From Candidatus Woesearchaeota archaeon (GTDB taxonomy: Archaea > Nanobdellota > Nanobdellia > Woesearchaeales > ARS49), in assembly GCA_003599055.1 (NCBI GenBank), contig QZIM01000012.1, positions 1 through 64,000 of the forward strand: a stretch of 64,000 bases of DNA, written 5' to 3'. Shown here piece by piece: positions 3,978 to 60,376 of the stretch (positions are counted from its first letter, which is position 1; each line of letters opens with the position of its first letter). Below the pieces are notes generated by a model. The model saw nothing but the letters and a program-made list of their open reading frames with translations. It had not been told where the DNA came from and searched no databases. The position numbers and the translations under genes were made by a program.

Positions 3978-4091
3978 CGCCGCCGCCCGGATTTGAACCG
4001 GATACGGAAAATCACAGACTTCATCAGCGATTTTCCAACACCGGTTCACATCCTCGCCCCATCTGAAAAATGGACTTCGTCCTCGTCTTAA
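3978..4091 (-). repeat. tRNA-Ser 3'-end duplication with hairpin element
   Basis: In the direction of tRNA-Ser(GGA), starting just after its 3' end, lies an element that ends with a second copy of the T arm plus acceptor strand (3978-4001, matching 4092-4115), displaced by 114 bases. Before the copy sits AGGATGTGAAC, then a long hairpin GGAAAATC...GATTTTCC, then GTATCC. Almost the same element follows tRNA-Ser(TGA) at 41250-41360, and related ones follow tRNA-Glu and tRNA-Lys. Confidence 0.8.
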
Positions 4092-4175
4092 CGCCGCCGC
4101 CCGGATTTGAACCGGGAAATCCTTGCGGAAACGGGATTTCCAATCCCGCGCAGTACCAGGTTGTGCCACGGCGGC
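4092..4175 (-). tRNA. tRNA-Ser (GGA)
   Basis: 84-base class II tRNA: acceptor GCCGCCG/CGGCGGC, discriminator G, short D stem GCA/TGC, anticodon arm CGGGA-TTGGAAA-TCCCG with anticodon GGA, long variable arm with stem TCC-GCAA-GGA, T arm CCCGG-TTCAAAT-CCGGG. No intron. TATA box TATTTAAAT at 4205-4213, about 34 bases before the 5' end. Two promoter-bearing 5' fragments lie upstream and a 3' copy lies downstream. Confidence 0.95.
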
Positions 4176-4220
4176 AATATTTTTTTGTTTTTCTTAGGAA
4201 GGCGTATTTAAATGCTTGCA

Positions 4221-4316
4221 CGGGATTTCCAATTCCGCGTAGCCACAGAAATCCGCTGATTTCTGGGGTTCCGAAAACCGCAAGGTTTTCGAGATACCAG
4301 GTTGTGCCACGGCGGC
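4221..4316 (-). pseudogene. tRNA-Ser 5'-half fragment with hairpin insert, copy 2
   Basis: Repeats the first 22 bases of tRNA-Ser(GGA) exactly, then carries about 52 extra bases forming two hairpins, CGAAAACC-TTGC-GGTTTTCG (4272-4291) and CAGAAATC-AGCG-GATTTCTG (4246-4265). It then resumes with a tRNA-like anticodon arm (TTGGAAA loop, GGA anticodon) and stops before the variable and T arms. It cannot fold to a full tRNA. A TATA box TTATTTAAAT (4355-4364) precedes it. Confidence 0.8.
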
Positions 4317-4372
4317 AAAAATGATGCTGGCTGTGTTGAGTTTTTCAGAAGGGGTTATTTAAATGCTCTGCT

Positions 4373-4465
4373 GATTTCCGATTCCGCGCAGCCACAGAAA
4401 TCCGCTGATTTCTGGGGTTCCGAAAACCGCAAGGTTTTCGAGATACCGGGTTGTGCCACGGCGGC
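4373..4465 (-). pseudogene. tRNA-Ser 5'-half fragment with hairpin insert, copy 1
   Basis: Second copy of the same unit, displaced by 149 bases and identical over 4390-4467 except for one base in the D loop (CCGG for CCTG in tRNA sense). It keeps both hairpins (4395-4414 and 4421-4440). The anticodon loop is degraded (TCGGAAA) and the match ends right after it. Its upstream region, including TATA box TATTTAAAT at 4494-4502, nearly repeats the promoter of the intact tRNA-Ser(GGA), so promoter and 5' half were duplicated together. Confidence 0.8.
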
Positions 4466-4556
4466 AATATTTTTTGTTTTTCTTAGGAAGACGTATTTAA
4501 ATGCTTGTGCCGGATGAGCCGTCAGGTTTTTAAAATGGCGCAAGGGTGGCTTTTTT

Positions 4557-10179: not shown

Positions 10180-10254
10180 GCCGATGTAGTATAGTCCGGT
10201 CAAGTATTCGGCCCTCTCGCGGCTGAGACCCGGGTTCAAATCCCGGCGTCGGCA
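10180..10254 (+). tRNA. tRNA-Glu (CTC)
   Basis: 75 bases: acceptor GCCGATG/CGTCGGC, discriminator A, anticodon arm CGGCC-CTCTCGC-GGCTG with anticodon CTC, T arm CCGGG-TTCAAAT-CCCGG. The sequence around the D loop (TAGTATAGTCCGG) is typical of archaeal tRNA-Glu. No intron. The nearest TATA (GCTTTTTAAAC, 10087-10097) would give a leader of about 60 bases. Confidence 0.93.
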
Positions 10255-10262
10255 TACCTGCG

Positions 10263-10293
10263 GGAGCAGCGCTCCTGCGCCTTTTTCTTTTTC
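10263..10293 (+). terminator. Hairpin plus oligo-T after tRNA-Glu
   Basis: GGAG-CAGC-GCTCC hairpin followed by CTTTTTCTTTTTC, 9 bases after the tRNA 3' end. Confidence 0.6.
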
Positions 10294-10385
10294 TGGATTT
10301 GAACCCTTGGGTTCATTTCAGACTGAGCGCAGCGAAGGATGAAAACTCGAAAACCGCAGGTTTTCGTGCAATCCCGGCGTCGGCA
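10294..10385 (+). repeat. Hairpin element ending in a tRNA-Glu 3'-end copy
   Basis: Ends with AATCCCGGCGTCGGCAT (10370-10386), a copy of the last bases of tRNA-Glu displaced by 131 bases. Before it lie AAGGATGAAAAC, the hairpin CGAAAACC-GCA-GGTTTTCG (10348-10366) and TGCAATCC. This is the same arrangement as at the two tRNA-Ser loci and tRNA-Lys. It also contains GGATTTGAACCC (10303-10314), an inverted T-arm-like sequence. Confidence 0.75.
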
Positions 10386-41165: not shown

Positions 41166-41249
41166 GCGGCCATGGCACAATCCGGTACTGCGGCGGTCTT
41201 GAAAACCGCTTTCCGAAAGGATATCCCGGTTCAAATCCGGGTGGCCGCG
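41166..41249 (+). tRNA. tRNA-Ser (TGA)
   Basis: 84-base class II tRNA: acceptor GCGGCCA/TGGCCGC, discriminator G, anticodon arm GCGGT-CTTGAAA-ACCGC with anticodon TGA, variable arm stem TTTCC-GAAA-GGATA, T arm CCCGG-TTCAAAT-CCGGG. No intron. TATA box CTTTTAAAA at 41133-41141, 29 bases before the 5' end. Confidence 0.95.
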
Positions 41250-41360
41250 TCGGCAAGGACAGAGACCTTTCCACAAAAACAACAAGGATGCGAACGGGTT
41301 GGAAAATCGCTGATGCAGTCGGTGATTTTCCGTATCCGGTTCAAATCCGGGTGGCCGCGT
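41250..41360 (+). repeat. tRNA-Ser 3'-end duplication with hairpin element
   Basis: CCGGTTCAAATCCGGGTGGC and the following CGCGT recur exactly 110 bases downstream (41336-41360) of the same bases in tRNA-Ser(TGA) (41226-41250). Between lie AAGGATGCGAAC, the hairpin GGAAAATC...GATTTTCC (41301-41331) and GTATCC. The hairpin part is nearly identical to the one after tRNA-Ser(GGA), yet the tRNA 3' end in each copy matches its own neighbour, as expected for insertion into the tRNA T arm. Confidence 0.85.
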
Positions 41361-41407
41361 ACATAAGGACAACATCCTGCCAAGAGAATTAATACTGAGG
41401 AAGAAAG

Positions 41408-59309: not shown

Positions 59310-59412
59310 ATGACCATAATGTCGCACTCTTGAATATATAAAGGTTATGATGGAAATGTCGCACTACGTGCCGCAAGGAGACTTTCCTGAGAAAGAAATA
59401 CAATAGAATAAG

Positions 59413-59597
59413 CGGGCCGCGAGGATCACGAAAATACTCCTGTATTTTCGAGAACCCAAAAATGCAGGCATTTTTGTGTCTTTCCCGCAGCGAAGGGAAA
59501 GTTTCCGAAAACACGCGAGCCAAATCGAGCGGGTTTTTGGAAGGTCAATCCCCTTAATGAACAATCCGAACAAAAACGAAGTGCGATAGAAGAAAAG
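59413..59597 (-). repeat. Hairpin array ending in a tRNA-Lys 3'-end copy
   Basis: Downstream of tRNA-Lys three hairpins lie in a row: CTTTCCC...GGGAAAG (59480-59501), CAAAAATGC-AG-GCATTTTTG (59457-59476) and CGAAAATAC-TCCT-GTATTTTCG (59429-59450). The last runs, in tRNA sense, into TGATCCTCGCGGCCCGCTT (59411-59428), a copy of the tRNA-Lys 3' end displaced by 185 bases. Same arrangement as at the two tRNA-Ser and the tRNA-Glu loci. Confidence 0.7.
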
Positions 59598-59633
59598 CGG
59601 GCCGTGAGGGGATTGAACCCTCGACCACCCGAT

Positions 59634-59669
59634 ATCGCCTTGCAGCGCTTGCGTTTGGCAAGCCCGCAG
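59634..59669 (-). other. tRNA-Lys intron 2 (canonical 37/38 site)
   Basis: 36 bases forming a GCTTGC-CAAAC-GCAAGC hairpin. TCTT of the anticodon loop can pair with AAGG near the 3' splice site, a relaxed bulge-helix-bulge. The exact boundary could shift by one or two bases because of the repeated AT at the 3' side. Confidence 0.8.
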
Positions 59670-59676
59670 TAAGAGT

Positions 59677-59702
59677 CTCACCAAATTCCGTAAAGGAATC
59701 TA
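59677..59702 (-). other. tRNA-Lys intron 1 (non-canonical 30/31 site)
   Basis: 26 bases with a textbook bulge-helix-bulge: exon CACC pairs with intron GGTG (4-bp central helix), flanked by 3-base bulges CGT and AGA each cut after the second base, with intron stem AGATTCC/GGAATTT and outer pairs GAG/CTC. Confidence 0.85.
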
Positions 59703-59710
59703 CGGGTGCT

Positions 59711-60376
59711 CTACCGCTGAGCTAACGGCCCATGAGTCGTGACCCGTTTGCATCGATTTAAATACCTTTCTACGTGATACGGGTTGCTGGGACGAACAAT
59801 CGCCATAAAGCGCGCAATGTCTTCTTGACGCGTTATCCGTAAAACAGATGTGTTTTTTTCACGAATTATTGTGTTTGAACCTATTCCCGCTAAAAACAGT
59901 ATCTCTTTGACTTGTTGAAGAAGGCGATATCCTTCGAGCTTAAATTGAACAACTAAGGAGTCATAAATTCTTGTGTGCCCTTTGTATTGTCGAGAGTACC
60001 TGCGATACACTGAGCCATCAGTATCAAAAATTCCGCGAACGCATGCAATAGAATGCGGAAGAGATGTTCTGATTTGTTGAGGAATCAGAAGATTTCGTTT
60101 CTTTCCGACAGGGAAACCAAGACCGTAAAGGAAGTCAAAGACGGTTTGCCCCATCACAAGTACAAGAGCGCAACGGGAGTGACGTTTATACAAATAGCCA
60201 TCAGATGAAAAGTACGCGCGAAGAATCGGGCGAAGAACCGTTTGATAGTATGCGTGGTCATTCAAGAGATGGCCGGTCAGTACAGCTACTCGCCTGCTTC
60301 TGCCTCCGCTAACGAATGAAGAAAGACAACCATCACCAAGCATTGCACCATAGAGTTCAGAAAGGGACGTATCCAT
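59711..60376 (-). CDS. LAGLIDADG homing endonuclease overlapping tRNA-Lys
   Basis: 221 aa. Two LAGLIDADG helices: LSELYGAMLGDGCLSS (residues 5-20) and CVRGIFDTDGSVYRRY (near 112), each with the catalytic acid, so the single chain forms the active pseudo-dimer. It lies upstream of tRNA-Lys on the same strand; its last seven codons (GPLAQR and stop) are the first 21 bases of the tRNA gene, and the codons for YLN contain the tRNA's TATA box. CTTTTTAAACC (60398-60408 leftward) gives a leaderless ATG 27 bases on. It is not inside an intron but next to an intron-bearing tRNA. Confidence 0.92.
   Translation of the reverse strand: MDTSLSELYGAMLGDGCLSSFVSGGRSRRVAVLTGHLLNDHAYYQTVLRPILRAYFSSDGYLYKRHSRCALVLVMGQTVFDFLYGLGFPVGKKRNLLIPQQIRTSLPHSIACVRGIFDTDGSVYRRYSRQYKGHTRIYDSLVVQFKLEGYRLLQQVKEILFLAGIGSNTIIREKNTSVLRITRQEDIARFMAIVRPSNPYHVERYLNRCKRVTTHGPLAQR

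Follow-up and report, generated by a model that had tools for sequence, protein, structure and literature searches.

Transfer RNA genes are the classic landing sites, and the fragile spots, of microbial chromosomes. The attC sites of integrons are imperfect palindromes, with two stems, an unpaired spacer and a variable loop, and integron cassettes stand in tandem arrays. In the open full text searched, partial tRNA copies are mentioned solely as remnants left by integrated elements (PMC9897764, PMC3119063), inverted triplications are confined to large copy-number variants (PMC10766186), and template switching has been found to homogenise the arms of inverted repeats (PMC8604942). Here we consider short repeats downstream of archaeal tRNA genes that a preliminary description had judged to be undescribed; in keeping with that judgement, no description was found in the open literature searched, a scope that leaves subscription journals outside.

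The window, by which we mean the whole 64,000-nt stretch analysed, belongs to a Woesearchaeota genome (G000) of 1.15 Mb in 26 contigs, 88.7% complete, and comparisons were run on stretches around tRNAs. The 3' ends of four tRNA genes had been reported to recur downstream, and the coordinates and sequences of these copies hold on re-inspection (Table 1). The copies end 114 nt (Ser-GGA), 131 nt (Glu), 110 nt (Ser-TGA) and ~186 nt (Lys) after the tRNA; the first three are clean, and the Lys copy, shorter, gapped and below the ungapped threshold used genome-wide, is the weakest case. This tRNA-Lys, which carries an intron and scores 49 bits against Rfam, is overlooked by ARAGORN. No 3'-end copy lies downstream of tRNA-Met (1513-1587). 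A hairpin of the form (C/G)GAAAA..TTTTC(C/G) is indeed present directly 5' of each of the four copies, as had been claimed. Perfect hairpins number 29 in the window and cluster near tRNAs, 9 of them falling within 350 bp of one, including the anticodon stem of tRNA-Ser itself; the remaining 20 are about the chance number (12-23).

Table 1. Positions of the repeat units in the window, and of matches to a tRNA-Ser-like RNA outside it
Locus	Feature	Position	Strand	Basis
tRNA-Ser(TGA)	intact tRNA; first forward copy supplied by its 3' third	41166..41249	+	
tRNA-Ser(TGA)	decayed inverted T-arm copy (AGGATGCGAACGG)	41285..41297	+	
tRNA-Ser(TGA)	hairpin hp2 GGAAAATCGCTGATGCAGTCGGTGATTTTCC; core also at Ser (three), Glu and Gly of the genome	41301..41331	+	
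tRNA-Ser(TGA)	second forward copy, T arm and acceptor 3' strand (family D16)	41334..41371	+	
tRNA-Ser(GGA)	intact tRNA	4092..4175	-	
tRNA-Ser(GGA)	hp1 GGAC-GAA-GTCC, C-GAA-G triloop in tRNA sense	4072..4082	-	read directly
tRNA-Ser(GGA)	inverted T arm AGGATGTGAACCGG	4041..4054	-	
tRNA-Ser(GGA)	hairpin hp2 GGAAAATCGCTGATGAAGTCTGTGATTTTCC	4006..4036	-	
tRNA-Ser(GGA)	second forward copy of 3' end	3978..4004	-	
tRNA-Ser(GGA)	5'-half copy, then two hairpins and anticodon arm (D3, D4)	4293..4316	-	
tRNA-Ser(GGA)	another 5'-half copy of the same kind	4442..4465	-	
tRNA-Glu(CTC)	intact tRNA	10180..10254	+	
tRNA-Glu(CTC)	hp1 hairpin GCGGGAGC-AGC-GCTCCTGC	10260..10278	+	read directly and fold
tRNA-Glu(CTC)	inverted T arm GGATTTGAACCC, clean	10295..10306	+	
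tRNA-Glu(CTC)	hairpin hp2 CGAAAACC-GCA-GGTTTTCG, C-GCA-G triloop	10348..10366	+	
tRNA-Glu(CTC)	second forward copy AATCCCGGCGTCGGCA	10370..10385	+	
tRNA-Lys	tRNA with intron	59598..59731	-	Rfam
tRNA-Lys	inverted T arm AGGGGATTGACCTTCC	59539..59554	-	
tRNA-Lys	four-hairpin chain; hp2 proper 59429-59450	59429..59540	-	
tRNA-Lys	second forward copy ATCCTCGCGGCCCGC, gapped, weakest case	59412..59426	-	
tRNA-Ser-like RNA	match outside window	L356:984-1102		
tRNA-Ser-like RNA	match outside window	L350:1026-1144		
tRNA-Ser-like RNA	match outside window	L350:1818-1934		
tRNA-Ser-like RNA	match outside window	L353:1012-1129		
tRNA-Ser-like RNA	match outside window	L352:997-1112		
tRNA-Ser-like RNA	match outside window	L355:1005-1117		
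tRNA-Ser-like RNA	match outside window	L351:1006-1123		
tRNA-Ser-like RNA	match outside window	L351:1704-1818		
tRNA-Ser-like RNA	match outside window	L354:1044-1157	-	

The four cases are part of a genome-wide pattern. With a covariance model, 40 tRNAs above cut-off were found in the whole genome, 41 with the intron-bearing Lys, and in 22 of the 41 a copy of the gene's own 3' end (last 32 nt, ungapped score of at least 13) lies ~40-220 nt downstream. Taken over this genome, several genera of its family and Haloferax, the distance is ~40-250 nt. As a null, 3' ends were set against remote flanks that belong to other tRNAs; only 1 of 267 such pairings reached that score, which rules out coincidence as the source of the four cases. 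Adding Lys and, by eye, the Gly tRNA at C8:24546 would bring the total to 24 tRNAs. The units measure ~65-230 bp, hold no genes and can form tandem arrays, with three units of ~97 bp at the Pro tRNA at C1:120393 and two at the Pro tRNA at C1:140163.

Read in tRNA sense, the intact tRNA is followed by a short flank with a first hairpin (hp1), then by the acceptor and T arm in inverted form (..GGATTYGAAC), one or more further hairpins (hp2), and a second forward copy consisting of GTTCRAATCC and the acceptor. We read this forward-inverted-forward layout directly in ~25 units; the inverted arm is decayed in many, so that the full layout is visible in only part of them. Scanned for such triplets, the window yielded three clusters, each of them at tRNA-Ser(GGA), where ten shuffles gave 0-1, and among 283 tRNAs the gene's own inverted match beat the best of ~300 cross-pairings in 50, being decayed in others. 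The tRNA-specific part of the inverted acceptor and T stem matched its own tRNA in 8 of 42 Woesearchaeota units (1.3% of cross-pairings) and, as a weaker signal, in 5 of 42 from Haloferax (2.8%).

The repeats do not stop at the tRNA. The inverted copy often runs on into the flank, flank-only complementarity exceeded that of 95% of shuffles in 16 of 43 units, and the flank after the tRNA shared 7.05 and 7.93 identities of 18 with the flank after the copy, as against 5.29 and 5.45 in cross-pairs. At tRNA-Ser(TGA) the similarity of the second forward copy extends 12 nt beyond the tRNA end into the flank. The units display what defines an inverted triplication: a pair of direct copies enclosing an inverted one, palindromic junctions (hp1 and hp2) at both axes, some haloarchaeal hp2 not being hairpins, and repeats that reach through pre-existing flank as far as the axis (L316/L277, L311/L285; partially in old units). 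Simple insertion into the T arm, as first proposed, misses two of these points, the inverted tRNA 3' third within the unit and the passage of the repeats beyond the tRNA end. The motif AGGATG.RAAC noted before the hairpins does occur at the two Ser loci, but there it is the decayed inverted T arm (GGATTTGAAC), and it was rejected as an independent signal.

Upstream of tRNA-Ser(GGA), at 4200-4500 on the minus strand, are two copies of the promoter and 5' half of this tRNA with hairpins inserted after the D loop, and the copy nearer the gene has promoter-like sequence of its own upstream. Comparable 5'-half copies lie upstream of other tRNAs (L033, L040, L045, L067, L099, L114).

A tRNA 3' fragment as a direct repeat is also what an ordinary att scar would leave, once a virus or plasmid integrated at the tRNA had been deleted. 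Archaeal integrases do use tRNA 3' ends, and partial tRNA copies are known from them (PMC9897764, PMC3119063); moreover, Haloferax larsenii has a 3.6-kb element with units at its flanks. We nevertheless consider such scars a very improbable origin of the units, which are short, occur at half of all tRNAs in a constant forward/inverted/forward layout, hold neither integrase nor mobile cargo between their repeats, being free of genes, and include an inverted arm that integration does not predict. As a general cause att scars were rejected, given that the two integrase genes of G000 adjoin a tRNA-Thr and a tRNA-Gly that are both unit-free and that the carrier genome G004 has no integrase. The two G000 tyrosine recombinase genes, beside tRNA-Thr (L042, C11:5285) and tRNA-Gly (L046, C4:19741), probably mark ordinary integrated elements. 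The Haloferax larsenii stretch (L145:1-3760) contains a short integrase-like N-terminal ORF and has a 5'-truncated tRNA-Glu at its right end; an att site inside a unit was rejected for it, since the repeat spans the truncated tRNA-Glu together with the unit.

Units were found at many tRNAs of a genome of the same genus (G001) and two of the same family (G009, G004). The strict pattern GATTYGAACT..AGTTCRAATC occurs in 3 of 279 genomes of the phylum, all from this Woesearchaeota family, and in 109 stretches over 85,462 prokaryote species genomes. A tRNA lies no more than 500 bp upstream of 42 of the 48 matches from haloarchaea, two 'Euryarchaeota Ods' MAGs and Woesearchaeota, compared with 3 of 61 in all other lineages; the expectation that matches adjoin tRNA 3' ends is borne out for nearly all matches in the carrier lineages. 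Of the six exceptions, three (L141, L145, L169) have tRNA remnants beside them, L213 has a partial tRNA-Gly, L216 falls at the end of the stretch examined, and L212 shows only short repeated acceptor-like ends. The family is not restricted to DPANN archaea; it also occurs in haloarchaea, where the units have the same anatomy as in Woesearchaeota. Searches of phages with one 91-bp haloarchaeal query gave no match, and a plasmid search for units returned bacterial tRNA genes only. Outside the carrier lineages, an alphaproteobacterial MAG (L160:5340-5670) has, downstream of a tRNA-Arg gene, a long inverted copy of that gene's 3' end together with its terminator, and may be a bacterial example. 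The palindrome pattern also occurs several times per genome in Candidatus Gracilibacteria (L163, L166, L177, L192, L207) and Mediterranea (L134, L135, L151); these palindromes, off tRNAs where checked, are probably unrelated repeat families.

Copies no more than 700 nt downstream were counted at 32 of 54 tRNAs in Haloferax gibbonsii and at 24 of 50 in H. sulfurifontis, both counts being upper bounds because a few matches are merely neighbouring duplicate tRNA genes. Empty sites, predicted for relatives by the preliminary description, exist at orthologous tRNAs of two Haloferax species, where filled and empty sites differ by ~117 bp at Lys and ~98 bp at Glu, and likewise at a Ser locus. At the Haloferax tRNA at C11:624989 (pair L316/L277) 208 bp are inserted, the direct repeat reaches tens of nucleotides beyond the tRNA, and that piece of flank is mirrored by the inverted arm; no other single locus speaks as clearly for fold-back copying.

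The hairpins very often have a characteristic loop. Triloops of the form C-GNA-G close 20 hairpins of Woesearchaeota units where 0.23 are expected. Within 250 nt downstream of the tRNAs we counted 30 such loops against 3 and 2 in control windows at the same loci, with 30 in tRNA sense and 6 antisense; the Haloferax figures are 18 against 4 and 5, with a weak strand bias (18 sense, 11 antisense). GNA and GNNA loops make extraordinarily stable DNA mini-hairpins, GCGAAGC melting near 78 C (PMC4686876), and because this extra stability is known in DNA, the loop type points to, although it does not prove, single-stranded DNA as the acting form.

Layout, loops and tRNA specificity can be brought together if the units are triplications born at tRNA 3' ends by fold-back (snap-back) template switching, the likeliest of the readings considered, to which we give even chances. 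The tRNA-sense single strand would fold at a hyper-stable C-GNA-G hairpin just 3' of the tRNA, the polymerase would then copy backwards through acceptor and T arm, and a second fold-back would return synthesis to the tRNA end, from where copying would proceed into the original flank. The functional tRNA would be left intact and the scar tolerated, repeated events would build tandem arrays, and the inverted arm and acceptor part would decay afterwards. Hairpin stems would stay paired because template switching between the arms homogenises them, so that the stems could change together without selection. Hairpin cores might occasionally spread to other tRNA loci with the same T-loop motif. Among the units examined, no fresh event with perfect arms was found, and the choice of tRNA genes and the restriction to certain lineages are beyond what fold-back explains.

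The hairpin part had been described as shared and the tRNA end as local, which is true of some cores across different tRNAs. One core, GGAAAATCGCTGA..TTTTCC, is common to three tRNA-Ser genes, a tRNA-Glu and a tRNA-Gly, and a related core lies at a tRNA-Leu; a second, TTGGCCAAGCCCA..GGGTTGGACTGAG, recurs at L033 and L044 (L033 and Pro). In haloarchaea another hairpin type has the form GAACTAC-GCGAGAC-(GAGCGAAGTGA)-GTCTCGC-CATCGAGTTC, in which the flanks are constant and both sides of the stem change together, as in GCGAGAC/GTCTCGC, GCAAGAC/GTCTTGC, AAATCC/GGATTT, AAACGC/GCGTTT and AACCGC/GCGGTT; this compensation in hp2 was read by eye, with two stem subtypes out of register in the alignment. 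A common haloarchaeal hp2 (GGGAGCGAAGCGAACG..) is purine-rich, with no clear self-complementarity by eye; this, like the weak sense bias of the Haloferax loops, counts against fold-back.

Cores that recur at different tRNAs are not predicted by simple local fold-back, and it was not unreasonable to consider instead a gene-less cassette, moved by a recombinase that is supplied in trans and works on single-stranded DNA in folded form. The recombination site, akin to integron attC, would then be built from the stem GGATTYGAACT/AGTTCRAATCC, a spacer left unpaired, another stem and a variable loop, and tRNA T loops would be the target. The constant haloarchaeal flanks (GAACTAC.., ..CATCGAGTTC) beside co-changing stems, the cores common to different tRNAs and genera, the tandem arrays of ~100-bp units and the presence/absence polymorphism are all consistent with such a cassette. 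Against it, the ends of the units are particular to each host tRNA, of which they hold an inverted copy, the repeated sequence carries on into the flank, and the R' box reads GTTCRAA rather than GTTRRRY. Nor can a mover be named: carrier G004 has no PF00589 tyrosine recombinase, carriers G000, G003 and G306 have no PF01797 Y1 transposase, and none of the recombinase families tested is common to all carrier genomes, although an enzyme of another kind, or one of the host, may be involved. Movement of the IS200/IS605 type (PATE/REP) was rejected, three carriers lacking the Y1 transposase. Compared with integrons, every unit has GTTCRAAT in place of the R' GTTRRRY and R'' RYYYAAC boxes, and G004 carries units without any PF00589 integrase. 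Compared with MITEs, constant terminal inverted repeats and a short constant target duplication are missing; unit ends depend on the tRNA, and the length of the repeat is not constant, in one pair extending tens of nucleotides past the tRNA. The preliminary description of a tRNA-associated non-autonomous family is accordingly right in that the units are gene-less, hairpin-bearing and tRNA-linked, but no site-specific enzyme can be tied to them. Because the spread of hairpins across tRNAs needs hairpin movement, we place fold-back copying no higher than an even prospect and retain the cassette as a tentative alternative, itself rather unlikely. That the units are a new minimal form of gene-less mobile DNA, single-stranded hairpin cassettes parasitising tRNA T loops in haloarchaea and one Woesearchaeota family, with the tRNA end rebuilt at each insertion, arrays formed and some host enzyme as the mover, seems to us doubtful.

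Given that the units keep a constant orientation just downstream of the tRNA, and that stem pairing is maintained despite sequence change, they might alternatively act as RNA, the read-through transcript of the tRNA folding into an acceptor/T-arm minihelix whose extended arm recruits a processing or binding protein. We regard this as improbable: about half of the tRNAs have no unit, orthologous tRNAs differ in this respect between Haloferax species, hairpins also occur within tRNA 5'-half copies, and the loops are of the DNA-stable GNA type. Known RNA families were rejected, since Rfam matches nothing but tRNA over the units.

While looking for T-loop hairpins in tRNAs, we came upon a dispersed tRNA-Ser-like RNA of ~119 nt, with nine matches in this genome (Table 1) and relatives in seven genomes of the same family and one of the order. 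It has class II tRNA arms, an anticodon-like loop of varied sequence and a conserved T-loop hairpin insert, GGGTTCAAAnACCTTnCGGT..TTGAAAnTCCC; 11 of 23 pairs show compensatory changes, and RNA fold z-scores are -6.4 and -4.1. Its sole Rfam match is a sub-threshold one to tRNA. Several copies end ~110-150 nt after unrelated housekeeping genes. In addition, the L051:1501-1600 region (G000:C10:24213-24286, minus strand) holds a tRNA-Lys(TTT)-like gene with a hairpin inside the T loop, which might represent a T-loop intron, a pseudogene or an RNA whose T arm is unusual; no separate intact copy of this tRNA-Lys(TTT) was seen in this incomplete genome.

If about half of the tRNA genes of model archaea such as Haloferax carry units, then either a frequent tRNA-directed mutational process or a minimal mobile element is at work there, hidden by gene annotation. 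Fold-back copying at tRNA genes would become directly testable in a tractable archaeon, and many 'partial tRNA' calls otherwise ascribed to lost viruses would be accounted for.

With the partial tRNA copies of integrative elements (PMC9897764), including Haloquadratum prophages (PMC3119063), the units share a repeated 3' fragment downstream of the tRNA; they differ in having no 9-50 kb element or integrase, and in the inverted copy and hairpins that separate their forward copies. The PATEs, MITEs and small mobile repeats of Haloquadratum are likewise short and non-coding with palindromes near their ends, but are dispersed and tied to transposons (PMC3119063), whereas the units here lie only by tRNAs and include local tRNA sequence. 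The imperfect palindrome, two stems with unpaired spacer, variable loop and tandem arrays are those of attC; the units are nevertheless without genes or a demonstrated IntI, their box departs from GTTRRRY and their ends are tRNA-specific. In layout the units resemble the inverted triplications of ODIRA and fold-back template switching (PMC10766186, PMC8604942), which have the same forward-inverted-forward order and palindromic junctions. In contrast to ODIRA, the present units are ~100 bp rather than kilobases long, lie always at tRNA 3' ends, and at about half of the tRNA genes, have C-GNA-G loops at their axes and are archaeal.
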